In this document: piece by piece, positions 6,160 through 39,928 of the stretch
Layout: every line of letters begins with the position of its first letter
Position numbering within the stretch: the first letter of the stretch is position 1
NCBI RefSeq assembly: GCF_013201725.1
Contig: NZ_CP053835.1
Coordinates: forward strand, 2,914,001-2,978,000
Reading direction: 5' to 3'
DNA from: Arcobacter defluvii
GTDB taxonomy: Bacteria; Campylobacterota; Campylobacteria; Campylobacterales; Arcobacteraceae
DNA length: 64,000 bases
Notes under the pieces: model-generated
What the model saw: the letters and a program-made list of their open reading frames with translations, nothing else
Told to the model about the DNA's origin: nothing
The model's database searches: none
Program-made: the position numbers and the translations under genes

Positions 6160-6861
6160 ATGTATAATAGAGATTATCTATCAAATCAATCATCTCAATA
6201 TGCACAAGAATCATCTCAAGTTCAATTAATGAGCTTTTTAAAAGCAACTTATCAATTATTTGCTGGTTCATTATTAGCAGCAACAGCTGGTGCATATATT
6301 GGATTAGGAATTGTTTCTATATTAATGGGACCAATGAAATGGGTTCTATTTGCAATTGAACTTGGATTAATATTTTTTGTTATTCCAAGAGTAAAACATA
6401 CTCCAGGCGTTAATTTAGCTGTATTATTTGCATTTACATTTATTACAGGATTAACAATTGCTCCATTATTAGCTTCAATTTTTGCAATGCCTAGTGGTGC
6501 ATCTATTGTTGGTCAAGCATTTTTAATGACTTCTGTTGCATTTGGTGGAATTTCAATGTTCGCAATGACAACTAAAAGAGATTTTTCTGCTATGGGGAAA
6601 TTTTTATTTATTGCTTTAATCATTATGATTGTTGCTGGTATCTCAAATATCTTCATTCAATCTTCAATGATGCAATTAGCAATAGCTAGTGTGGGAGCAT
6701 TATTATTCTCAGCATTCATATTATATGATACACAAAACATTATCAAAGGTAATTATGATTCACCTATTGAAGCAGCATTATCTTTATATTTAGATTTCTT
6801 TAATCTATTTATTTCATTATTACAAATTCTTGGAATTATGAATAGTGGAGACAGAGAGTAA
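6160..6861 (+). CDS. Bax inhibitor-1/YccA family membrane protein
   Basis: This is a 233-residue protein with about seven membrane helices filling most of residues 25-228, the size and shape of the BI-1 (TMBIM/YccA) family of pH-sensitive calcium-leak channels. Two conserved acidic positions can be seen near the end: the YDTQ motif (Asp about 190) and LYLDFFN (Asp about 212). They match the aspartate pair that gates the family's characterised member YetJ. The start has a good AAGGAAAG ribosome site. A terminator hairpin overlaps the stop codon, so the gene is probably transcribed alone. The cellular role in this organism is unknown; the family assignment is firm. Confidence 0.88.
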   Translation: MYNRDYLSNQSSQYAQESSQVQLMSFLKATYQLFAGSLLAATAGAYIGLGIVSILMGPMKWVLFAIELGLIFFVIPRVKHTPGVNLAVLFAFTFITGLTIAPLLASIFAMPSGASIVGQAFLMTSVAFGGISMFAMTTKRDFSAMGKFLFIALIIMIVAGISNIFIQSSMMQLAIASVGALLFSAFILYDTQNIIKGNYDSPIEAALSLYLDFFNLFISLLQILGIMNSGDRE

Positions 6862-12115: not shown

Positions 12116-13918
12116 ATGAGAATAGTATTTTTGATTTTATTTTTAATTTCAAATATTTTTGCAATTGCAATAGATAAAAGTTGGTATGAAGGAACTAATG
12201 AAAATTTAGATAAGTTATATCAAGATCAAATAAAAAAAATTGATTCTTTAAAAACAACTGCTTCACAAGAAGAAAAAGAGCAACTTGATTATCAAAATCT
12301 ACTCCTAAAAAAACTCTCAAATTTTATAAAACAAGATAATCAATTTACATTAAAAGATGTGGTTCAAATCGAAAATTTAGATGATTATATAAAAAAAATC
12401 AAAGATTATTTGAAAATTGAATCAGATTTTACAAATAAAAAAGATGAATATGAAGAGACATCTAAGAAAATTGAAATTTTAGAAGAACAAATCAGTAAAT
12501 TAACAGAAAAAGATGCTTATCCCACTATAAATTCTCAACTCTTATATGCCTTTTATATTTTAAAAAATAAACAAAATAAAACTATTATAGAAGAGTATAT
12601 AAAATATCAAAAGAATTTTAAGAAGAAACTATTAGATAGTTTAAATAGTCTAAAAATTGTGACAAATGAAGATTTAGCAATAAAGTTATCAAAAATAGAA
12701 ACTAACTATAATCAAATATTAAAGGAAGAAAAAAGATTATTATTAGCTTTAGATAAAGCTCAAATAAGTGAAAATGAATCAAAAATCAATTCTTTAGAAA
12801 ATGATATTAATCAACTTAAAAATGAAAAATCAAAAGTTATTGACAATATAATTTATACAAAGATTGAAGAGTTATTACCATCTTTAAAAAATAAAAAATC
12901 ACAATATTTTGATTTTAGTAAAAATTTACAGGAATTTATTCAATCTAGTAATGAAGATTACAGCTCTTTAATTGAGTTATTAAAATATTTATCAAGGGAA
13001 CATCTAGGAGTTACAAAAACAACTTTTGCTGATACAAAAGAAAGTTTTATTGATATGATTAAATATACATGGCAAGAGATAAATAATCCTGTTATTCCTA
13101 TTGGAGAAGGTATTTCTATTTTTGCAATTACAAAATTCTTGTTAATTTTTATAATTGGATTTTCAATTGCAACATTTTATAAAAGAAAAATTTCAAATGC
13201 AACTACACACTATTTGAAAACAACTTCTATTGCAACAAGAACAATGCTTGCAAATCTTGGATATTACTTTTTAGTTGCTATTACTTTTATCTTTGGATTA
13301 AATGCAATTGGAATAGATTTATCATCTCTTACTATTTTAGTTGGGGCATTATCAGTTGGTATTGGATTTGGCTTACAAAATATAGTTTCAAATTTTATTT
13401 CTGGAATTATTTTGATATTTGAGAAATCTATTCAAGTTGGTCACATTATAGAGATTGAAGCTGGATTAAGAGGAAAAGTGACACAAATAAATATGAGAAG
13501 TAGTGTTATTACTACTTTTGATAATATTGATATTATCATTCCCAACTCAACCCTTATCCAAAATAATGTAATAAATCTTACATTTTCAGATGATATTAGA
13601 AGATTAAATGTTCCTTTTGGAGTAGCTTATGGCTCGAATATTGAAGAAGTTATAAAAATAATTCTAAAATCTTTACAAAATAGTTCATTAATGTATATAC
13701 GAAGTAGCCCTGAAAAAATGGCAAAAGTTAGAATGACAGGGATGAATGCAAGTTCGATTGATTTTGAGTTACTTGTTTGGATTAGTGAAAATCCTGATGA
13801 GAATGGTGTTGGTTCATCAAATATGTCAGATTTTTTAATATTTATTTATAATACTTTACAAGAACATAAAATAGAAATACCTTTTCCACAAATGGATGTT
13901 CATTTAAGAAGAAATTAG
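12116..13918 (+). CDS. mechanosensitive channel of the MscS family with long periplasmic N-terminus
   Basis: This is a 600-residue protein. A signal-like segment (1-17) precedes about 300 residues rich in Lys, Glu and Leu that are probably coiled coil (roughly 30-250). Three membrane helices follow (about 335-425). The pore helix and beta domain have the MscS hallmark GALSVGIGFGLQNIVSNFISG, then the GKVTQINMRSSVITTFDN beta domain. The architecture resembles MscK/YbdG-type large MscS proteins, which release solutes on hypo-osmotic shock. A hairpin terminator spans its last codons and the end of the convergent ZntB-like gene. Confidence 0.88.
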   Translation: MRIVFLILFLISNIFAIAIDKSWYEGTNENLDKLYQDQIKKIDSLKTTASQEEKEQLDYQNLLLKKLSNFIKQDNQFTLKDVVQIENLDDYIKKIKDYLKIESDFTNKKDEYEETSKKIEILEEQISKLTEKDAYPTINSQLLYAFYILKNKQNKTIIEEYIKYQKNFKKKLLDSLNSLKIVTNEDLAIKLSKIETNYNQILKEEKRLLLALDKAQISENESKINSLENDINQLKNEKSKVIDNIIYTKIEELLPSLKNKKSQYFDFSKNLQEFIQSSNEDYSSLIELLKYLSREHLGVTKTTFADTKESFIDMIKYTWQEINNPVIPIGEGISIFAITKFLLIFIIGFSIATFYKRKISNATTHYLKTTSIATRTMLANLGYYFLVAITFIFGLNAIGIDLSSLTILVGALSVGIGFGLQNIVSNFISGIILIFEKSIQVGHIIEIEAGLRGKVTQINMRSSVITTFDNIDIIIPNSTLIQNNVINLTFSDDIRRLNVPFGVAYGSNIEEVIKIILKSLQNSSLMYIRSSPEKMAKVRMTGMNASSIDFELLVWISENPDENGVGSSNMSDFLIFIYNTLQEHKIEIPFPQMDVHLRRN

Positions 13919-29106: not shown

Positions 29107-29234
29107 ATTCTATCCTACTTAATAATTTAATACAAATTAATATTTTTCTTGAATAAAAAGTGTCATTTTTTATATATTATTTTAGATTATAATTTATCCA
29201 TTTAATCCCCTTAATTTACTAAAGGTTGATCTTT

Positions 29235-31781
29235 TTGTATAGATATTTTTTATATTTGATTTTCCTACCAATACTTTTAATTGCAAATGAGCATTTAGAA
29301 AAAATTTCTCTACAACTATCTTGGTTTAATCAATTTCAATTTGCTGGTTACTACATTGCCAAAGAAAAAGGTTTTTATAAAGATTATGGATTGGATGTTG
29401 ATATTAAATATTTTAATTTTAATATAGATGTTGTAAAAGATGTAAATGAAAACAAAAGTGATTTTGGAATTGCAAGAGAGACATTAATTCCTGAAAGAAT
29501 CAATAATTATAATAATCTAGTTGCATTATATGCCCTATTTCAAATTTCACCTTTAGTGCTTATTTCAAAGAAAGATTCAAATATAAATGAAATAAAAGAA
29601 TTTTATAATAAAAGAATTATGCTTACTGATAATGATTATATTCAAGCTTCAATAAAGGCCTTGCTTATTGCAAATAAAGTTGATTTAGATTCAATAAAAT
29701 TCTTAAAGCATACTCATAATGTAAATGATTTAGTAAATAACAACACAGATATTATAAGTGCATATATTTCAAAAACACCATATTTTTTGGAAAAAAACCA
29801 TATTCCTTTTAATATTTTTTCACCAAAAGATTTAGGTTTTGACTTTTATAGTGATTTTTTATTTACTAATAAAACTCTTATAAAAAAAGATGAAGACAAA
29901 GTAATTGCTTTTAAAAAAGCTTCTTTATTAGGTTGGCAATATGCCTTTAACAATATAGAAGAGAGTGTTGATATAATTTTAAAAAAATACAACTCTCAAA
30001 ATCTTACAAAAGATGAATTAATTTATGAAGCTAATGCTCTAAAAAAATTATCTTACTATAAAAACAATCCTCTTGGAGATATAGATGAAAATAAATTAAA
30101 AAGAATTTATGATATCTATTATTTAATGGGTTATATCAAAAATTCTACCTATCCTTCTGATTTGGTATTTGATGAATATAAACCAATTTTTAGTGAATAT
30201 GAGAAAGAATTTTTAAAAGATAAAGATACTTTTAAAATGTGTGTTAGAAAGAATTTTTTACCATATGAAGCGATTATAGATGGGAATATTATTGGAATAA
30301 ATTCTGAATATTTAAGAATATTTGAGAAGAAGATTGGTAAAAGTATAACATTAGTTCCTGTGAATACTTTAAAAGAATCTATATCTAAACTAAAAAATTA
30401 TGAATGTGATTTTTTCTCTTTCTTTGATGAAAGTAATATAGAAGATAAAGATATATTATTTACAAAATCTTATATGGAATTGCCTTTTGTTTTAGTAACC
30501 ACAGGAAAAGACTCATTTATTACAAACTTTGAACAACTAAAAAACAAAAAAATATTTGTTGAAAATAATATTAATTTATTCCAAACTTTAAAAAGAAACT
30601 ATCCTTATATTCACTTATATACTACATATAATCCATCTTATGCTTTCAAGAAAATTTCAGAAAATAACTCAGATGGCTACCTTGGGAATATTGCAAATGT
30701 CGTTTATAACTTGCAAAAGGAGTATAATACTGATGTGAATATTACAGGAAATTTTGATTATAAAACGAATATTCTTTTAGCAATAAATAGCAAAAATTTT
30801 TTATTGCAAAATATTTTAAATAAGGTAATTAGTAATATCTCAAAAGAAGAAAAAGAGTTAATTTTAAATAATTACACCTTATTAAAGTATAAGGAAGTTA
30901 AGAATTATAAAACTTTATTTATTGTTTTAATAAGCTCTTTTTTGGTTATAAGTTTACTTACTATTGTTTATGTAAGAGAAAGTATATTAAAAAATAAAAT
31001 ACAAAAATTAAATGAAAACTTAGAAAAAAGAGTTTTAGAAGAAAGTTTGAAAAATAGAAAAAAAGATGAAATGCTATTTAAACAAACAAAATTAGCTGCA
31101 ATGGGAGAGATGATAAATAATATAGCTCATCAATGGAGACAACCATTAAATAGAATTAACTTATCTGTTCAAATAATTGAAAATATTTTGAAAGAAAATA
31201 AAAATTTATTGGAACAACAAGATTTAAATATCATTGATAAAAAAATTTTACACGTAAATAAAAATATAATTTATATGTCAAATACAATTGAAGATTTTAT
31301 GAACTTTTTTCACCCTAATAAAGAAAAAAATCTTTTTAACTTATCAAAATTAATCATGAAAGCAATCATTTTAATTCAAAGTAAGGATTCAGATATATAT
31401 TTTGAAATCAATGTTGATAAAAAAATTAATATTTTCAACTTTGAAAATGAATTATTACAAGTTATTTTAGTCATTTTAGAAAATGCTATTGATAATTTTG
31501 AATTAAACTCTTCAAAAAATAAATATCTTGGTATTTTTGCAAAAAAAGAGAAAAAGAAAATTACTTTAACAATAAGAGATAATTCAGGAGGCATTCCCTC
31601 ATCTATTATTGATAAAATATTTGAACCTTATTTCACAACAAAATTTAAAAAAGAAGGCTCAGGGATTGGTTTATACATGGCTAAAATTCTAATAGAACAA
31701 AGCATTGGAGGGAAACTTGATGTTAACTCTGATAATTCTTTTACAAACTTTATAATAACCCTACAAAAGGAAAATAAATGA
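29235..31781 (+). CDS. sensor histidine kinase with NMT1-like and SBP-type periplasmic domains
   Basis: This sensor kinase has about 848 residues. After a signal segment it has an NMT1/THI5-like substrate-binding domain (about 20-250: LSWFNQFQFAGYYIAKEKGF), then a second SBP (type 3) domain (about 340-560), a membrane helix near 570, a HisKA domain with phospho-acceptor His in NIAHQWRQPLNR (about 631), and an ATPase domain with DNSGG and GSGIGLYMAK. It probably senses a periplasmic amine, amino acid or nutrient analogue. Of two possible TTG starts, 29235 is best spaced from AAAGG (29221-29225); 29226 is too close. The stop overlaps the response-regulator ATG (ATGA), but that partner gene is interrupted. 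Confidence 0.85.
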   Translation: MYRYFLYLIFLPILLIANEHLEKISLQLSWFNQFQFAGYYIAKEKGFYKDYGLDVDIKYFNFNIDVVKDVNENKSDFGIARETLIPERINNYNNLVALYALFQISPLVLISKKDSNINEIKEFYNKRIMLTDNDYIQASIKALLIANKVDLDSIKFLKHTHNVNDLVNNNTDIISAYISKTPYFLEKNHIPFNIFSPKDLGFDFYSDFLFTNKTLIKKDEDKVIAFKKASLLGWQYAFNNIEESVDIILKKYNSQNLTKDELIYEANALKKLSYYKNNPLGDIDENKLKRIYDIYYLMGYIKNSTYPSDLVFDEYKPIFSEYEKEFLKDKDTFKMCVRKNFLPYEAIIDGNIIGINSEYLRIFEKKIGKSITLVPVNTLKESISKLKNYECDFFSFFDESNIEDKDILFTKSYMELPFVLVTTGKDSFITNFEQLKNKKIFVENNINLFQTLKRNYPYIHLYTTYNPSYAFKKISENNSDGYLGNIANVVYNLQKEYNTDVNITGNFDYKTNILLAINSKNFLLQNILNKVISNISKEEKELILNNYTLLKYKEVKNYKTLFIVLISSFLVISLLTIVYVRESILKNKIQKLNENLEKRVLEESLKNRKKDEMLFKQTKLAAMGEMINNIAHQWRQPLNRINLSVQIIENILKENKNLLEQQDLNIIDKKILHVNKNIIYMSNTIEDFMNFFHPNKEKNLFNLSKLIMKAIILIQSKDSDIYFEINVDKKINIFNFENELLQVILVILENAIDNFELNSSKNKYLGIFAKKEKKKITLTIRDNSGGIPSSIIDKIFEPYFTTKFKKEGSGIGLYMAKILIEQSIGGKLDVNSDNSFTNFIITLQKENK

Positions 31782-31953
31782 ATAGATTGAATTTATTATA
31801 TGTTGAAGATGATGAAGAAACAGTAGAAAGTATAGATTTCTTTTTAAAAAGACACTTTAATGAAATATATATTGCACAAGATGGTGAACAAGCTTTGTCT
31901 TTTTTTGAAGAAAAAGATCCAGATATTATTATTTTAGATATAAATATTCCTAA
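31778..31953 (+). pseudogene. response regulator gene, 5' part (interrupted)
   Basis: This is the first 58 codons of an OmpR-type response regulator: LLYVEDDEETVES with the acidic pocket and IIILDINIP holding the phospho-acceptor Asp. The reading frame then enters the inserted element and stops after eight foreign codons. The last 8 bases (31946-31953, ATTCCTAA) are the target duplication. The missing remainder is at 39418-39928. Joining the two gives 687 bp, an exact multiple of three. The gene overlapped the sensor kinase stop codon, so the two formed a pair. Confidence 0.88.
31946..31953. repeat. 8-bp target-site duplication, left copy
   Basis: ATTCCTAA directly precedes the left terminal repeat. 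The same 8 bases follow the right terminal repeat at 39410-39417. It encodes the Ile-Pro-Lys of the response regulator receiver domain. Confidence 0.88.
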
Positions 31954-31954
31954 C

Positions 31955-33073
31955 TCAACTTTCGCACATAAAACCTAACTGTTTTTTGGTGTAAACCCTT
32001 AGCATATGGATAATCTGTTCTAAATCTTTATTTCTCTTGACAATTTGAGCTGATTGTATCAATTGTTCTAATATTTTTAGGAATATTTCCATTGATATAG
32101 CTAAAGTTTCAAGTTGGCACTCCAAATCTCTAAAAAGATTACCAAGAGTTTGTGGTTCATTATTGATTCGGTTAATGTAGCTTGTTAGATTATAAGCAAG
32201 GAATGATAGAGTTATTCTAGCTATTAAAGCTTCATAAATTCGATTCTCCTCTTTACCAAATTGAAAATATTCTCTCAAATCTTTATATCCTTGTTCTATA
32301 TTCCATCGTTTTTTGTATGTATTGATAATTTCTATATCTGATAAAATTATATTTGTAGAAATTATTGGTATAAGATTATCTTTTGTTTTTATAAAAACTA
32401 TTTTGATTTTTCCAAGTGTTTTATGAGTAACAATAGCAGAAACATAGCTATATTTGATAGAATTATAGTTACCTAGTTTTGAACATTTATGATGTTTAGC
32501 TTGATTATAAAGTGATTCAAGGGTTTTTGAATTCCCTATAAATTGCCAAATTTTGTTTGATTTTGAAACTCTTGCAATCACATCAAGACCATTTTGTTTG
32601 ACTTCATTGATAAAATTTGGTTTTGCATACCAACTATCTACAAGAAGATAATCAGCATATATTCCTGCATTCAAAGCTCTATTTATCATATTGATAGCTT
32701 GTAAGTTTTTACCATTAATCCCTTCAATCCTTCGTTTGTAAGCATTACTTGAATGATGAATTGTTGTATCTGTAAAATCTACAATCTGATTTTTATTATA
32801 ATTTAGTGAAAAATCTAGCATTAAATCAGTATATGAATCACTGTAATTGATTGACACAATATTCAACCCCTTAACAACTCTTTTTTCTTTATTGCTCCAA
32901 AGATTTTTACAACTACCCTCTATATACTTACCTCGTTTGATTTCAACTGTATCATCGATAATAAGAACTTTTGTATCTGTAGAATTTTGAAAATATACAA
33001 GTTTAGATAAGAGTTTTACAGATGTTAAAAGTAATAGTTTTCTCCAATTATAACGACCGTCTATAATAGACAT
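31955..33073 (-). pseudogene. IS4-type DDE transposase, catalytic part
   Basis: This frame of about 372 codons holds the catalytic core: first Asp in VLIIDDTVEIKRGK, second Asp in YLLVDSWYAKPNF, and Glu in TYKKRWNIEQGYKDLREYF (the Y-R-E-K type signature of IS4-like enzymes). The N-terminal DNA-binding part is in another frame (33048-33302). The frame change is in the direction that would need a +1 shift. Residues usually found between the YYR and RYNWR segments are missing, so a small deletion is more likely than programmed frameshifting. The transposase is therefore probably inactive. Confidence 0.75.
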
Positions 33074-33302
33074 CTTTTTTATAACTATCGCTACTGTATT
33101 TCATAAAAGTTGATATTTTTTTATTGATAATGAACATATATAAAAATTGTAAAATTATCATATATGGTTTTACACCTATATCACGCTTTTTAAAATTACT
33201 TTGCTTAAGAATACTACTAAAATTTATATCCCTTAAAACTTCAACTATTGGATTTTTTAATACTTTATTCATAGCTGTTTCGATAAAATTGTCAAGTCCC
33301 AT
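33048..33302 (-). pseudogene. IS4-type transposase, N-terminal part
   Basis: This is an 84-codon frame beginning MGLDNFIETAMNKVLKNPIV and ending shortly after DSYKKDVYYRR. It is the N-terminal part of the transposase, overlapping the catalytic frame by 26 bp in a different frame. The first 62 codons are repeated identically in the right-end IS remnant (39101-39288). Confidence 0.75.
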
Positions 33303-33423
33303 AAAAAAGCCCTATGTAATGGTGTTTTGGTCAATGTTATTATAGCTAAAAGTGCCTATTTATGGGATTTAAGGAAGCTTTTTTATATAGGAAATTTATG
33401 ATTTTCTATGTGCGAAAGTTGAG

Positions 33424-33607
33424 TTAAAATATATAAAAATAAAAAAATATAGTAATTATGTTTATAATTACTATAAAAATTAAATTAATAGCAACCTATA
33501 ATAAACTATTATTTATTATTAAGATGTTAAAATCAAAAAAATAATAACTGAAATAAATATAAATCTTTATTCAAACAATTTGTCAAGTATGCTAATATGG
33601 GGAAGCT
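33424..33607. other. cargo-side spacer with a perfect palindrome
   Basis: This 184-bp AT-rich spacer lies between the IS and the hybrid kinase gene. It contains a perfect 12-bp inverted repeat, TATAGTAATTAT (33448-33459) with ATAATTACTATA (33464-33475), around GTTT. On the minus strand the hairpin is followed by seven T, so it could stop transcription toward the IS. It could instead be an operator for the kinase gene. Confidence 0.45.
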
Positions 33608-36600
33608 ATGAATTTTTTTAAGATAAACTTAAATATAAAGAATTTTACTTATGGTTGGTTTATCTTCTCCATACTGTTTATAATCTTACTAGCATCCCTA
33701 CAAGCTTATTTTGAGTATAAAAGAGCGATTGAGAATACTAAAATTTCTACTAGTAATTTAACAATGCTTTTAACTAAAAAGCTTGAAAATGATTTTGAAC
33801 AATCAGAAAATATACTTAAATTAGCAGAATATGTTATTTTGACTCTTCCAAAAGAGAATAACAATTTTTATTCATTTAGTTTTGACCAAAAAAAGAAAAT
33901 AGTAAATGATAAATTTAGATTTTTACTTAGTAACTTTAGCAATGTAAGTGTTATAAATTTTGCAAATAAAGAAGGTGATATTTTATACTCATCAAATAGT
34001 TTAAATTCTCTTGTTAATATTTCAAGTAGAGAGCATTTTCAGATGCTGAAAAATAACAAAGACTTAAATACAACATTTTCGGATGTTCTTTTTTCTTTTA
34101 CTTCTAGTTCCTACTCTATTATCCAAGCTAGAGCAATTCGAGATGAGAATAAAGATTTAGTAGGTGTATTAACAGCACTAATAGATATTTCAACAATAAA
34201 CAATACTTTAGCTTCTATAAATACTGGAAAAGAGGGAGTTGTTCTTATTAGAAATAGTGATACAAGTAGTTTAATTGCCAGATATCCAGAAGTTGAAAAT
34301 GTTAATGTAAATAGCAAATTACCCAATTCAAATGCAACTATTTTAAAGATTAAAAATGGTGAAAAAAGTGGAAGTTTTGAATATATAGCATCAACAGATA
34401 GTGAGAAAAGAATAGGTAGTTTTTTAGTAATGGATAAATACCCTTTTTATATTCAAACTGCAATTTCAGAAAAAAATTATTTATATCTATGGAAAAGAAA
34501 CCTTATAATCTCAACTATTTTAATCGTACTTTTTATAATAGCTTCTTTTTTATTATTTAGAACTATGAGAGCAAATTATTTTAAAGAGTTAAAACTTTCA
34601 AAAGAGATTAAAATAGTTAAAAATAGATTTGAAAATATGTTTAAAGTTCACTCAGCAATAATGCTTCTAATAGATGTTAAAACTGGAAATATTATTGATG
34701 CAAACATTAGTGCTTGTAAATTTTATGGCTATACACTAGATGAGTTTAAAAAATTAAATATCTCAAATATAAATGTTTTATCAAAAAAAGAGATTCAAGA
34801 TAAAATTGAAGAGGCTAAAAATCTTAATAATAATACTTTTATATTTCCTCATATATTAAAAAGTGGTGAAATAAAAACTATTGAATCAAATACTTCACCA
34901 ATAGAGACAGAAAAAGGAAAAATTCTTTTTTCAATAATAAAAGATATAAGTAAACATCTAGAGTTAGAAAAAGAGATTGAGGAAGAAAAAGAGAGATATA
35001 AAAATCTTACTAACTACTCATCGGATGCTATTTTTATTGTAAATATAGAAGATGGGAAATTAGTTGAGTTTAGTAAAAGAGCAAAAGATTTACTTGGATA
35101 TGATAATAATGAGATGAAAAATCTCTCAATTTTTGATTGGGATACTAATATTAATAGTTTTGAAGAGTATCAAGATGTTGTTTCAAAGATTAATCAAACA
35201 CCTATTTATATTGAAAGAGTTCATAAAAGAAAAGATGGTAGTGAATATCAAGCTGGTATTACCTCTGTAAAGATAAAATTAGGAGGGAAAGAGTATTTTT
35301 ATGCTTCTGCTAGAGATATTACTGAGCAAAAAGAGATTGAAGCAAAAATTCTTGATACAACTTTAAAACTAGAGTTAGCAACTACAGCTTCAAAACAAGG
35401 TATTTGGAGATTAAACTTTGCAACAAATAGTTTAGAGTTAGATGACAATATGTATAAAATCTATGGAATAACTCCACAAAAAGATATAAATAATTATGAA
35501 CTTTTTAGAAATAGAATTCTTAAAGAAGATTTACCTATTGTAGAAGAAAAAATAAATATTGCCAAAGATACAAATGGTACTTTTGATACTATATTTAGAA
35601 TAAAAAGATTTGATAATAATGAAATAAGATATATTAAAGTATCAGCAATTTGTCAATTTGATGAAAATGGAGATAAAGTTGCTATGGTTGGTTCAAGCAT
35701 TGATGTAACCGAATTAGAAATTGCTAAAATAAATGCTTTAAAAGCAAATGAGGCAAAATCTAAATTCTTAGCTAATATGTCTCATGAGATTAGAACTCCT
35801 CTTAATGGAACAATTGGACTTATAAATTTAGTTTTAGATACTCCTTTAAATCCTTTACAAAATGATTATTTAAATAAAGCTATTCAAACTTCAAACTCTC
35901 TTTTAAATATTATTAATGATATTTTAGACTATTCAAAAATAGAGATAGGAAAATTAGATATTTTAAAAGAGCCATTTTATTTAAACCAACTTTTGGAAAA
36001 TATATCTAATATTTTTGGTTACAAAATTTATGAAAAAGGTTTAGAATTTAGCTTTACTGTTGATCCTAAAATAAATAATAGTCTAATTGGGGATAGTTTA
36101 AGATTAACTCAAATATTAAATAACTTTATTGGAAATGCTATTAAGTTTACTCAAAAAGGTAATGTTCATGTGGATATAAATCTTATTAGAAAAAATGAAA
36201 ATAAACTTCTTTTAGATTTTAGTGTAAAAGATACAGGAATTGGAATAGCTTTAGAAAATCAAAGTAAACTTTTCAAAGCATTTAATCAAGAAGATAGTTC
36301 AACAACAAAAAAATTTGGTGGAACGGGGCTTGGTCTTGTAATAGCAAAACAACTTGTAGAATTAATGGATGGAGAGGTATATTTTAACAGTATAAAAGAT
36401 AAAGGAAGTACTTTTGGTTTTAAAATTGAGCTTGAATATATAAAAGATACTATGTTTATAAAAGAGAATTTAAAAACTTATATTAATTCTAATTTCTTAA
36501 TAATAGATGATAGTGAGATAGATAGAGAATATTTGAAAAAAATATTATCATCATGGGAAATAGACTCTTTGAGTGCATCTAATGGTTTAGAAGCTTATGA

Positions 36601-37852
36601 AATAATAACTCGTGAAAAAATAGATTACATAATAGTAGATTGGCATATGCCAGAACTAAATGGCTTAGAACTTCTAAAAAAACTTCAAGATAATAATATC
36701 AATATACCTAACATTTTAATGATAACTGCTCATAATAAACAAGAGCTTCTTAATGAGGCACAAAATAGTAATATTTATATTGAAAAAATTATTGAAAAAC
36801 CTTTTACTCCATCTTCTTTATATAATACAATTTTTGATAAAAAAATAGAGAGTAAAAAAGTAGAAAGTGAAAAAATGAAATTAACCTCTTTAAAAAAAGC
36901 TTTAGTTGTTGAAGATAATGAGATTAATCAAATTGTCTCAAGTAAAATGCTAGAAAGTATTGGTTTTGATATAGATATTGCAAATGATGGTCTTGAAGCT
37001 GTAGATATGGTAAATAAATCTCATTATGATATTGTTTTTATGGATTTACAAATGCCAAATATGGATGGTTTTGAAGCGACTAAAAGAATTAGAGAGTTTA
37101 ATAAAAACACTCCTATTGTAGCACTTAGTGCTGCTGTTATGGATAAAGATAAAGAGCTAACTTCATTAGCAGGTATGAATAACCATCTTGCAAAACCTTT
37201 AATTCGAAGTGAGCTTGAATCAATATTAAAACAATATTTTGAGATGGAATCAATAGATAATGAGTTAAATAAATCTAGTGCTATTTTTATAAAAGGTATA
37301 AATATCTCATCTGTAATTGAAAACTACAATACAGATATAAATGATATTTACAGAATGTATGAAAAATTTTATAAAGAGTATAAAGATATAGATAAAGATT
37401 TAGAATCTTTGAAAAATAGTGAAAAAGAGTACTTTGAATATCTTCATAAATTAAAAGGAGTTAGTGGTAACCTTCATATTCAAGAAGTTTTTGAGACTTC
37501 TAAAAAGATTTATGACAATAAAGAACTCTCATTTTCTAATCATCTTATTGAAATTACTAAAAATATTTGTGAGAATATAGAGAACTCTATTCTTCCAATA
37601 TTAAAAAGTAGTCAAAAAGATATAAAATCTTTAGATTTAAAAGAGTTAAAAAATGGTATTGAAAAATTAATTGTAGATTTAAAAGATTATGAATATATAT
37701 CTAGTGATAAGATTGGTTTACTTTTAGATAATTTAAAAACTCTTTTACCAAAAAAAGATATTGATTTATTAAATAAATCATTTGAAAAGAGTGATAATGA
37801 AACAGTTATCTCTTTATTAGAAAATATTTTAAAGGATTTTGATGCAAAATAA
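33608..37852 (+). CDS. hybrid sensor histidine kinase (dCache-PAS-HisKA-REC-REC-Hpt), transposon cargo
   Basis: This is a 1,414-residue sensor. Two membrane helices (about 17-34 and 298-318) flank a Cache-type periplasmic domain. Three PAS domains (about 335-455, 460-580 and 580-710) follow, then HisKA with His726 in FLANMSHEIRTPLNG and an ATPase with TGIGIA and GTGLGLVIAKQL. Next come two receiver domains (about 958-1075, Asp in IIVDWHMPELNG; about 1096-1210, Asp in VFMDLQMPNMDG) and an Hpt domain with His1280 in YLHKLKGVSGNLH. All phosphorelay residues are intact. The gene sits inside the composite insertion and is followed directly by a diguanylate cyclase, its likely output partner. Confidence 0.87.
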   Translation: MNFFKINLNIKNFTYGWFIFSILFIILLASLQAYFEYKRAIENTKISTSNLTMLLTKKLENDFEQSENILKLAEYVILTLPKENNNFYSFSFDQKKKIVNDKFRFLLSNFSNVSVINFANKEGDILYSSNSLNSLVNISSREHFQMLKNNKDLNTTFSDVLFSFTSSSYSIIQARAIRDENKDLVGVLTALIDISTINNTLASINTGKEGVVLIRNSDTSSLIARYPEVENVNVNSKLPNSNATILKIKNGEKSGSFEYIASTDSEKRIGSFLVMDKYPFYIQTAISEKNYLYLWKRNLIISTILIVLFIIASFLLFRTMRANYFKELKLSKEIKIVKNRFENMFKVHSAIMLLIDVKTGNIIDANISACKFYGYTLDEFKKLNISNINVLSKKEIQDKIEEAKNLNNNTFIFPHILKSGEIKTIESNTSPIETEKGKILFSIIKDISKHLELEKEIEEEKERYKNLTNYSSDAIFIVNIEDGKLVEFSKRAKDLLGYDNNEMKNLSIFDWDTNINSFEEYQDVVSKINQTPIYIERVHKRKDGSEYQAGITSVKIKLGGKEYFYASARDITEQKEIEAKILDTTLKLELATTASKQGIWRLNFATNSLELDDNMYKIYGITPQKDINNYELFRNRILKEDLPIVEEKINIAKDTNGTFDTIFRIKRFDNNEIRYIKVSAICQFDENGDKVAMVGSSIDVTELEIAKINALKANEAKSKFLANMSHEIRTPLNGTIGLINLVLDTPLNPLQNDYLNKAIQTSNSLLNIINDILDYSKIEIGKLDILKEPFYLNQLLENISNIFGYKIYEKGLEFSFTVDPKINNSLIGDSLRLTQILNNFIGNAIKFTQKGNVHVDINLIRKNENKLLLDFSVKDTGIGIALENQSKLFKAFNQEDSSTTKKFGGTGLGLVIAKQLVELMDGEVYFNSIKDKGSTFGFKIELEYIKDTMFIKENLKTYINSNFLIIDDSEIDREYLKKILSSWEIDSLSASNGLEAYEIITREKIDYIIVDWHMPELNGLELLKKLQDNNINIPNILMITAHNKQELLNEAQNSNIYIEKIIEKPFTPSSLYNTIFDKKIESKKVESEKMKLTSLKKALVVEDNEINQIVSSKMLESIGFDIDIANDGLEAVDMVNKSHYDIVFMDLQMPNMDGFEATKRIREFNKNTPIVALSAAVMDKDKELTSLAGMNNHLAKPLIRSELESILKQYFEMESIDNELNKSSAIFIKGINISSVIENYNTDINDIYRMYEKFYKEYKDIDKDLESLKNSEKEYFEYLHKLKGVSGNLHIQEVFETSKKIYDNKELSFSNHLIEITKNICENIENSILPILKSSQKDIKSLDLKELKNGIEKLIVDLKDYEYISSDKIGLLLDNLKTLLPKKDIDLLNKSFEKSDNETVISLLENILKDFDAK

Positions 37853-39101
37853 AAATACTATTTTAGTTGTTGATGATCAATCTATTAATATTGATTTTAT
37901 TGTTACTAATTTTAAAGATAAATATAATATCAAAGTAGCATCAAATGGCGAAATGGCTTTGAAGGTTTTGGATAAATTTGAGATAGATTTAGTTTTATTG
38001 GATATTCAAATGCCAATCATGGATGGTTATGAAACTATTAAAGAGATTAAGAAACAAGATAGATTCAAAGATTTACCTGTTATTTTTTTAACAGCAAAAA
38101 CAGATAGTGACTCTTTAATAAAAGGGTTTGAATTAGGAGCAAGAGATTATATAAGAAAACCTTTTAATACTAAAGAGTTGAATGTAAGAGTAAACAATCA
38201 TTTAGAGACATATAAATTAATTAAAAGATTAGAACTATCTTATAAAAACCTAGAAAAACTATTAGATACTCAAGCTAATATTGTGATTTTAACAAATGGT
38301 GAAGAGTTGAAGTTTGCTAATCGTAAATTTTTTGAGTTTTTAAATTTTGAGAATTTGGAAAAATTTAAAGAAAAACATAAATGTATTTGTGAATTTTTTA
38401 TAGAAGATAACAATTTTTTTCATCTAAAAAAGATTAAAGAAGGTTCAAACTGGTTACATGAAATAAACTTACTAGAAGATTCACAAAGAGTAGTGTTAAT
38501 TAAAAATGAGACAAAAGAGTTGGCTTTCTCTGTATCAATAAATCAATATGATATAGATACAATGATTGTAAATTTTACGGATATATCTGAAACTTTTAAC
38601 CAAAAAATGAAATTAGAGAAAAAAATTCTTCATGATAAACTAACAAATGCTTACAATAGAGAGTTTTTTGATCAAAATTATAAAAAGTTTATATCAGAAT
38701 ATAGTAGTTCAAACTCAAAACTAGCAATAGCTATGTTAGATATAGACCACTTTAAATTAGTAAATGATAATTATGGTCATGATATTGGAGATCAAGTATT
38801 AATTCAATTTGTAGATACTCTTAATAAAAACACTAGAAAAAATGATATTTTAGTTCGTTGGGGTGGAGAAGAGTTTATAATGATTTTAAAAATAGATGAA
38901 GCCTCTAATCTTCAAAAAATATTAGAATCTTTAAGAAAATCTATAGAGTCTTTTGATTTTAATATAGTTGGACATAAAACTTGCTCTATAGGTGGAACTA
39001 TTTACTTAGAAAATGAAGATATATTAAAAACCATAAAAAGAGCAGATGAGGCAGTTTATAAAGCAAAAGAGTTAGGAAGAAATAAAGTTGTAATTGTTTA
39101 A
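37842..39101 (+). CDS. response regulator diguanylate cyclase (REC-GGDEF), transposon cargo
   Basis: This protein has 419 residues from ATG 37842, which overlaps the kinase stop by 11 bp and has AAAGGA upstream. The receiver domain (1-120) has LVVDDQS and the phospho-acceptor in LVLLDIQMPIMDG. A middle segment (about 135-250) of PAS-like size is followed by a GGDEF domain with active site RWGGEEF. An RKND motif five residues before it is a canonical inhibitory I-site. It should make cyclic di-GMP when phosphorylated, probably by the hybrid kinase. The TAA stop codon shares its last base with the start of the IS remnant. Confidence 0.88.
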   Translation: MQNKNTILVVDDQSINIDFIVTNFKDKYNIKVASNGEMALKVLDKFEIDLVLLDIQMPIMDGYETIKEIKKQDRFKDLPVIFLTAKTDSDSLIKGFELGARDYIRKPFNTKELNVRVNNHLETYKLIKRLELSYKNLEKLLDTQANIVILTNGEELKFANRKFFEFLNFENLEKFKEKHKCICEFFIEDNNFFHLKKIKEGSNWLHEINLLEDSQRVVLIKNETKELAFSVSINQYDIDTMIVNFTDISETFNQKMKLEKKILHDKLTNAYNREFFDQNYKKFISEYSSSNSKLAIAMLDIDHFKLVNDNYGHDIGDQVLIQFVDTLNKNTRKNDILVRWGGEEFIMILKIDEASNLQKILESLRKSIESFDFNIVGHKTCSIGGTIYLENEDILKTIKRADEAVYKAKELGRNKVVIV

Positions 39102-39409
39102 TTTTTTTATTGATAATGAACATATATAAAAATTGTAAAATTATCATATATGGTTTTACACCTATATCACGCTTTTTAAAATTACTTTGCTTAAGAATAC
39201 TACTAAAATTTATATCCCTTAAAACTTCAACTATTGGATTTTTTAATACTTTATTCATAGCTGTTTCGATAAAATTGTCAAGTCCCATAAAAAAGCCCTA
39301 TGTAATGGTGTTTTGGTCAATGTTATTATAGCTAAAAGTGCCTATTTATGGGATTTAAGGAAGCTTTTTTATATAGGAAATTTATGATTTTCTATGTGCG
39401 AAAGTTGAG
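39101..39409 (-). mobile_element. truncated right-end copy of the IS (309 bp)
   Basis: This segment looks identical, base for base by eye, to 33115-33423, the right end of the full IS. It includes the first 62 transposase codons (ATG at 39288) and the terminal repeat. The catalytic part is absent; the junction is exactly at the stop codon of the diguanylate cyclase. The identity implies recent duplication. Confidence 0.87.
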
Positions 39410-39417
39410 ATTCCTAA
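39410..39417. repeat. 8-bp target-site duplication, right copy
   Basis: ATTCCTAA directly follows the right terminal repeat and equals 31946-31953. The response-regulator frame resumes in register from here. Confidence 0.88.
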
Positions 39418-39928
39418 ATTAAATGGAATTAAATTAGCAACAAAAATAAGAGAAAAAAATAAAAAAGTACCTATTATCTTTTTAACAGCATATAGTGATA
39501 AAGATAACCTCTTGCAAGCAATACATCTTCATGCTTTCTCATATTTAATCAAGCCATTTAAAATAAATGAATTAATAGAAACTATTGACAAATGTAAAAA
39601 AGAATTTTTCTGTGAATATTCAAATCCAAATCTAAAGAAATTGAGTCAGAATCTCATTTGGAATAAATTAAAAAAAGAGTTATATTTTAATAAAGAAAAA
39701 ATCTCATTAACTAAAAATGAATTATCTCTTATAAATCTTTTTGTGGAAAATGATTTTAAATTTTTTACACCTGAAGAAATAAATGAATATATCTTCTTAA
39801 ATCATGACCTAAAAAATAATTCAATAATTCAACTTATTTCACGATTAAAGAAAAAAATTACTGAAATAACAAGTGATTCTGAATTTTTTATCGAAAATAT
39901 TTACAATAAAGGCTATAGACTGAAATAA
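39410..39928 (+). pseudogene. response regulator gene, 3' part (interrupted)
   Basis: This is the remainder of the gene starting at 31778. It encodes the second half of the receiver domain (PIIFLTAYSDKD, then SYLIKPFK with the conserved Lys) and a winged-helix OmpR/PhoB-type DNA-binding domain (KISLTKNELSLINLF near its start, IYNKGYRLK at the end). An internal ATG at 39512 lacks a good ribosome site and would make only a fragment. The combined 228-residue protein would have been a normal-size regulator. Confidence 0.85.

Follow-up and report, generated by a model that had tools for sequence, protein, structure and literature searches.

How a hybrid histidine kinase gene and a diguanylate cyclase gene, framed by pieces of an insertion sequence (IS), came to lie within a response-regulator gene of Arcobacter defluvii is the question raised by the locus described here. 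It is located in a window of 64,000 nucleotides (positions 2,914,001-2,978,000 of the single-contig 3.02-Mb genome; NZ_CP053835.1, GCF_013201725.1), and coordinates are window positions unless another locus is named. From our point of view, the locus is explained most simply by composite transposition with a p133-like plasmid as donor, and this account is probably the correct one; the kind of element is known, and what is new is this instance and the completeness of the record that it left behind.

Results

Ends of the unit and target-site duplication

The IS-bounded unit spans positions 31954-39409 (~7.46 kb) and consists, in this order, of a 1,470-bp IS4-family element (31954-33423), 5.7 kb of cargo and a 309-bp copy of the right end of the IS (39101-39409). 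The cargo is hence flanked by one full-length IS copy and one 309-bp end, which are 100% identical where they overlap. At the outermost ends, the 17-bp terminal inverted repeats, beginning at 31954 and 39409, are intact, and the window sequence shows an exact 8-bp duplication ATTCCTAA on both sides of the unit, with the left copy at 31946-31953 and the right copy at 39410-39417. An earlier reading of this DNA from its letters alone (hereafter the sequence-only reading) had already described matching inverted repeats and this 8-bp duplication at the outer ends, and we find both at the same coordinates. It had further stated that the inner IS end carries no such duplication, and there the IS indeed adjoins TTAAAATA and not ATTCCTAA, so that the IS by itself is without a duplication. 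The duplication is thus present only outside the unit and not around each IS copy, which is the arrangement that characterizes a composite transposon.

The interrupted regulator locus

The gene directly upstream of the interrupted one encodes an NMT1/SBP-type sensor histidine kinase (29226-31781, + strand; Pfam NMT1, SBP_bac_3 and HATPase_c), which, with its gene order kept in relatives, is the likely partner of the interrupted regulator. In the joined reading frame, the 5' part of the response-regulator gene (31778-31953, + strand) ends right behind the receiver domain's conserved ILD motif, and the 3' part (39418-39928, + strand) contributes the Trans_reg_C DNA-binding domain recognized by Pfam. 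Excising the unit together with one copy of the duplication yields a single complete response-regulator ORF. The uninterrupted regulator gene that the sequence-only reading had proposed to look for was found in four species of the genus (L043-L046), in which the kinase-regulator-MCP locus is continuous at ~74-77% DNA identity and the 8 bp are present once at the empty site, as ATTCCAAA. Since excision restores the ORF and the same gene order is uninterrupted in these four species, a chance origin of the duplication is excluded.

The left IS4-family element

The left element (31954-33423, - strand), which we assign to the IS4 family, is complete in length and ends in 17-bp terminal inverted repeats CTCAACTTTCGCACATA, and homologues align with it from end to end in several genomes. 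Its transposase gene (31955-33302, - strand) has lost its reading frame through an 11-bp deletion at 33058/33059, which leaves an open portion at 31955-33073, while six of the seven aligned homologues are open across 452 aa. As the homologues reveal a deletion, a programmed frameshift was rejected. The former description as a full IS4-type element consequently holds for the length of the element but not for its transposase. An open homologue with 85% DNA identity to the window IS scores 279.1 against the NCBIfam IS4 family cut-off of 250, and the broken window transposase scores 238.3 against the same cut-off. The signature of the IS4 family is Y-(2)-R-(3)-E-(6)-K; as read from the sequence, the window transposase motif YKKRWNIEQGYKDLR has Y, R and E at the expected places and R where K is expected. 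The IS group also displays the features of the family in its terminal inverted repeats of ~16-17 bp and in duplications of near-fixed size (7-8 bp), both found with several copies.

Within the whole 3.02-Mb genome, only this one IS and the one further IS end are present and no other copy of this kind was found, and the unit therefore looks imported. Because no other IS copy exists in the genome and the transposase is broken by the 11-bp deletion, the unit is probably stranded and immobile now unless a transposase is supplied from elsewhere.

The IS group in the genus

Several single copies of the IS group are accompanied by 7-8-bp duplications, in which T is favoured at -7 and at -3 and A at -1, a preference that ATTCCTAA fits. 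Due to this preference, matches of at least 7 bp occur in ~4% of end pairs and matches of 8 bp in only ~0.4%, true pairs included.

In three other genomes of the genus (G010, G014 and G027), IS pairs form units that resemble the one in the window in their terminal repeat CTCAACTTTCGCACAT and in having matching 7-bp flanks outside only, with inner flanks that differ. They are unlike it in that both IS copies have both ends, the cargo is another one and, in G014 and G027, the copies are inverted. The G010 unit (L182 1065-10955, 9,891 bp) carries TetR, TolC-like, membrane-fusion and RND pump genes, as named from the sequence, and lies in a gene: once its flanks are fused, an ORF of 390 aa runs across the junction, and the duplication is TAAAAAA. 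This restored ORF is good evidence that the G010 unit is a composite unit. The G014 unit (L183 1316-5352, 4,037 bp; inverted IS pair, one-gene cargo) and the G027 unit (L184 1242-9127, 7,886 bp; inverted IS pair, phosphate-type ABC transport genes, again named from the sequence), in which the left IS copy is split by an IS3-type element, have as their outer matches 7-mers that are frequent anyway, and are no more than suggestive of composite units. Taken together, this suggests that the IS4-type element builds composite transposons with ordinary cellular cargo (signalling, efflux, phosphate transport) in several species of the Arcobacter group.

The kinase-cyclase cargo and its other copies

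The kinase gene is preceded by an upstream region (33487-33607, + strand) that sequence comparison shows to be common to p133 and Arcobacter vandammei. It encodes a hybrid histidine kinase (33608-37852, + strand) with Cache, PAS, HisKA and HATPase_c domains and two receiver domains according to Pfam; a Hpt-like HKLKG motif near the C-terminus was read from the sequence, with no Pfam match for Hpt. The following gene (37842-39101, + strand) encodes a REC-GGDEF diguanylate cyclase, with the domains assigned by Pfam and the GGEEF active-site motif read from the sequence. Pfam hence agrees with the earlier naming of the two signalling genes.

Among 104 genomes of the family, a kinase with at least 94% identity is found only in the window genome, in G008 and in G028 (A. 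vandammei; contig NZ_JADKPZ010000004.1, 149,801 bp), and the next-best matches reach 40-51% over part of the protein. The pair is further carried by the near-identical plasmids p133_LEO_107 and p133_DSM_115972 (95.8% DNA identity), so that copies of the cargo with ~96% identity are present, in all, on two p133 plasmids and in two chromosomes. As had been suggested as a check, the pair is thus found elsewhere, and the G008, G028 and p133 copies lie at three unrelated sites without the window IS. The finding that had been named as one that would speak against the unit, namely the cargo at the same locus without any IS, did not turn up among the 104 genomes, in which the kinase copies of G008 and G028 are at other loci.

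For the conserved housekeeping gene aspS, the window genome and G008 share 85% identity, and G008 and G028 share 90%. Since the cargo is 96% identical, the comparison indicates that it has been exchanged recently. Its genes are open in all four copies compared, and a dN/dS of 0.16-0.35 is consistent with selection for function. The cargo had no match in phage records, and viral contigs gave matches of 29-38% only. At the A. vandammei site, only the aquaporin side could be aligned and no full empty site was found; IS630-end-like sequences (TTACTCC..) are located near both sides of the cargo there (L053 ~6700-6730 and 12428-12450).

A plasmid footprint beside the IS

Between the left IS and the cargo lie 63 bp (33424-33486, + strand) that match p133_LEO_107 and plasmid-like contigs and represent p133-type plasmid backbone, more precisely the 3' end of a plasmid gene. 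The run 33424-33521 (98 nt) is identical to p133_LEO_107, and when the sequence preceding the kinase gene was used as a query, 33424-33486 came out as a separate block with 92-97% matches in three contigs (G007:C2, G011:C2 and G028:C15). These contigs align over several kilobases with the p133 sequence to the left and to the right of the cargo, and the cargo itself is absent from that place; given their size and their resemblance to p133, the contigs of G007 and G011 are probably plasmids. On p133 itself, the block is next to the cargo, and the kinase upstream region that follows is split by an IS630-type element. As the 63 bp are p133-type backbone and the same site is empty in three plasmid-like contigs, these matches identify the donor as a p133-like plasmid. 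The first 63 bp of what the sequence-only reading had called cargo are, accordingly, plasmid backbone.

The rest of the p133 backbone (9.4 kb tested) was not found in the window genome, save two diverged short matches, and no IS of the window kind is present on p133. In p133_LEO_107, the cargo and the IS630 element are placed between imperfect ~33-bp direct repeats of backbone (L137 10792-10854 and 17597-17630), a repeat that is single in related plasmids. A paper on p133 plasmids was not found in the literature search.

Two other interpretations of the flanks were discarded. A Xer/difH site at a palindrome of the plasmid backbone was rejected, as the palindrome lies in coding sequence and has no match to published Arcobacter difH. 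The likeness of the left flank in the window to the right flank on p133 had prompted the idea of a head-to-tail (circle) joint of the cargo, which was given up once both flanks proved to represent one and the same site of the plasmid backbone.

The right IS end and its joint with the cargo

The right end of the second IS copy (39101-39409, - strand) is in direct orientation with its outer inverted repeat intact, and no mismatch separates it from 33115-33423. Where the 3' flank of the cyclase gene meets the IS interior (39101-39111), comparison with p133 and A. vandammei reveals 11 nt of microhomology, ATTTTTTTATT: in both of these, the cyclase gene is directly followed by the same 11 nt, which are also present inside the full IS at 33115-33125. 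Thus, the IS end had been described correctly as a directly oriented 309-bp copy, which is 100% identical, but only 298 bp belong to the IS alone and the first 11 nt occur both in the IS and in the sequence that naturally follows the cyclase gene. Because the 11 nt are found both behind the cyclase gene and in the IS interior, we infer a short-repeat deletion at this joint that took most of the right-hand IS.

Solo right ends of the IS group (~345-365 bp) were also observed in two other genomes (L188 1441-2005 in G009:C25; L035 1501-1844 in G016:C187), and truncated right ends therefore recur in the genus.

Discussion

The course of events that we propose would have started on a p133-like plasmid, where an IS4-family element may have inserted just left of the kinase-cyclase pair, at a site whose flank TTAAAATA fits the target preference, and where a second copy in the same orientation would have been present right of the cargo. 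The transposase would then have acted on the outermost end at each side and transferred the entire segment, including 63 bp of plasmid backbone, into the chromosomal response-regulator gene with an 8-bp duplication. Either before or after this move, a deletion between the 11-nt repeats ATTTTTTTATT, of which one follows the cyclase gene and the other lies within the right IS, could have removed most of that IS while keeping its outer end, and at some time the 11-bp deletion would have broken the transposase. As an outcome, one two-component regulator was presumably lost and an intact phosphorelay with a putatively active, c-di-GMP-forming output gained.

The composite-transposon interpretation of the sequence-only reading gains support from the empty regulator gene in relatives, from the occurrence of the pair elsewhere without the IS and from the lack, among the 104 genomes, of cargo at this locus without an IS. 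Against it count that the right IS is an end only, with two full copies postulated, that the transposase is now broken and that the immediate donor is not in hand, since p133 carries no such IS and its cargo differs by ~4%. The same final structure would also be expected if a single IS had entered the regulator gene first, with the duplication, and plasmid DNA or a circle of cargo and IS end had then recombined with this resident IS. That one copy cannot separate the two routes had been noted before and we agree, though the footprint and the similar units favour transposition. Identical 309-bp copies are what such recombination would leave, as would recent copies, and plasmids of the p133 type are present in the genus. 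Yet this route needs a prior IS at the site and a second event with an IS-bearing cargo molecule, whereas the genome has no other IS copy and the IS alone was not found at this regulator site in any of the four relatives sharing the locus. In addition, other units of the IS group share the outer-duplication pattern, two of them with inverted copies, for which recombination between the copies cannot match the outer flanks. We hence regard recombination with a resident IS as less likely than composite transposition and, on the whole, as unlikely.

An error of assembly or sequencing that joined two loci via the repeated 309 bp could draw on the exact repeat that is present at each joint, and the transposase might likewise owe its 11-bp deletion to an error; as the genome is a single contig, the repeat occurs nowhere else in it, leaving no third copy to mis-join, and the duplication and the reading frame are exact, we consider such an artefact very improbable. 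Still more remote is the notion that the cargo is native to this chromosomal region and the IS inserted beside it. While the target locus likewise encodes a sensor kinase and signalling proteins, four species of the genus have no cargo there, a reading frame is split by the cargo and the cargo's flank is plasmid backbone. The similarity of the cargo to copies on plasmids and at distant loci is moreover far above vertical descent (~96%, against 85% for aspS and ~75% for the target locus in sister species).

Transfer as a composite transposon, with a p133-like plasmid as donor, remains our preferred account of the chromosomal insertion. One could speculate, with little confidence, that the kinase-cyclase pair is itself a mobile module, able to reach plasmids and chromosomes without the IS4-type element, with the composite transposon being only its latest carrier. 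This idea is based on the several unrelated contexts with similar boundaries, which in p133 and A. vandammei lie ~120 bp upstream of the kinase start and ~15 nt past the cyclase stop, and on the imperfect ~33-bp direct backbone repeat that flanks the p133 cargo. In A. vandammei, an IS630-type element might have moved the cargo into its site.

Tn10 (IS10) and Tn5 (IS50) are the classical composite (compound) transposons of IS4-family elements. Like the unit in the window, they hold cargo between two IS4-family copies of which one is degenerate, use the outer ends and show a short, outer-only duplication. They differ in their inverted copies, their resistance genes and a 9-bp duplication, whereas the window unit has direct copies, the second cut to 309 bp, signalling genes and an 8-bp duplication. 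Non-resistance cargo between two IS copies is also known from the composite transposons for chlorate and perchlorate reduction, in which metabolic genes lie between near-identical insertion sequences (PMC4623255 and its reference 38). In these cases the IS, the cargo and the bacteria are others, and the unit described here differs further in that the type of its donor plasmid can be identified from the backbone footprint.

According to the titles and abstracts of PMC10672970 and PMC4542580, genomic islands and ICEs can carry diguanylate cyclases, and the abstract of the former speaks of increasing numbers of them on mobile elements. The earlier view that signalling genes are rare cargo is weakened by this statement. 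The cyclases described in these accounts share with the window cargo that c-di-GMP-forming enzymes reside on mobile DNA; they are on integrative elements, whereas here a kinase-cyclase pair lies in a small IS-bounded unit. Judged by titles, abstracts and, for one paper, passages of the text, the literature that mentions both Arcobacter and composite transposons does not appear to describe this unit, and titles and abstracts on such signalling cargo contain nothing alike.

The event itself is of a well-known type, but the donor plasmid type, the target in its empty state and the traces left by the jump are all visible here, and the pair is carried by plasmids of related food-borne Arcobacter. 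Most stages of one transfer are thereby documented from sequence: the plasmid site empty and occupied, the composite transposon with its backbone fossil, and the chromosomal insertion with an empty target in relatives. The jump would have swapped one two-component output for a c-di-GMP phosphorelay and as such represents a simple, one-event rewiring of regulation.

Solo right ends of the IS group (~273 bp, 77-78% identity) were additionally observed on small cryptic plasmids, namely A. butzleri plasmid AB-1166-LD (L139 2977-3249), NC_025123, NC_025125 and NC_025126. GGDEF genes are listed on two such A. butzleri cryptic plasmids (PMC3896396), and AB-1166-LD also has a GGDEF gene.
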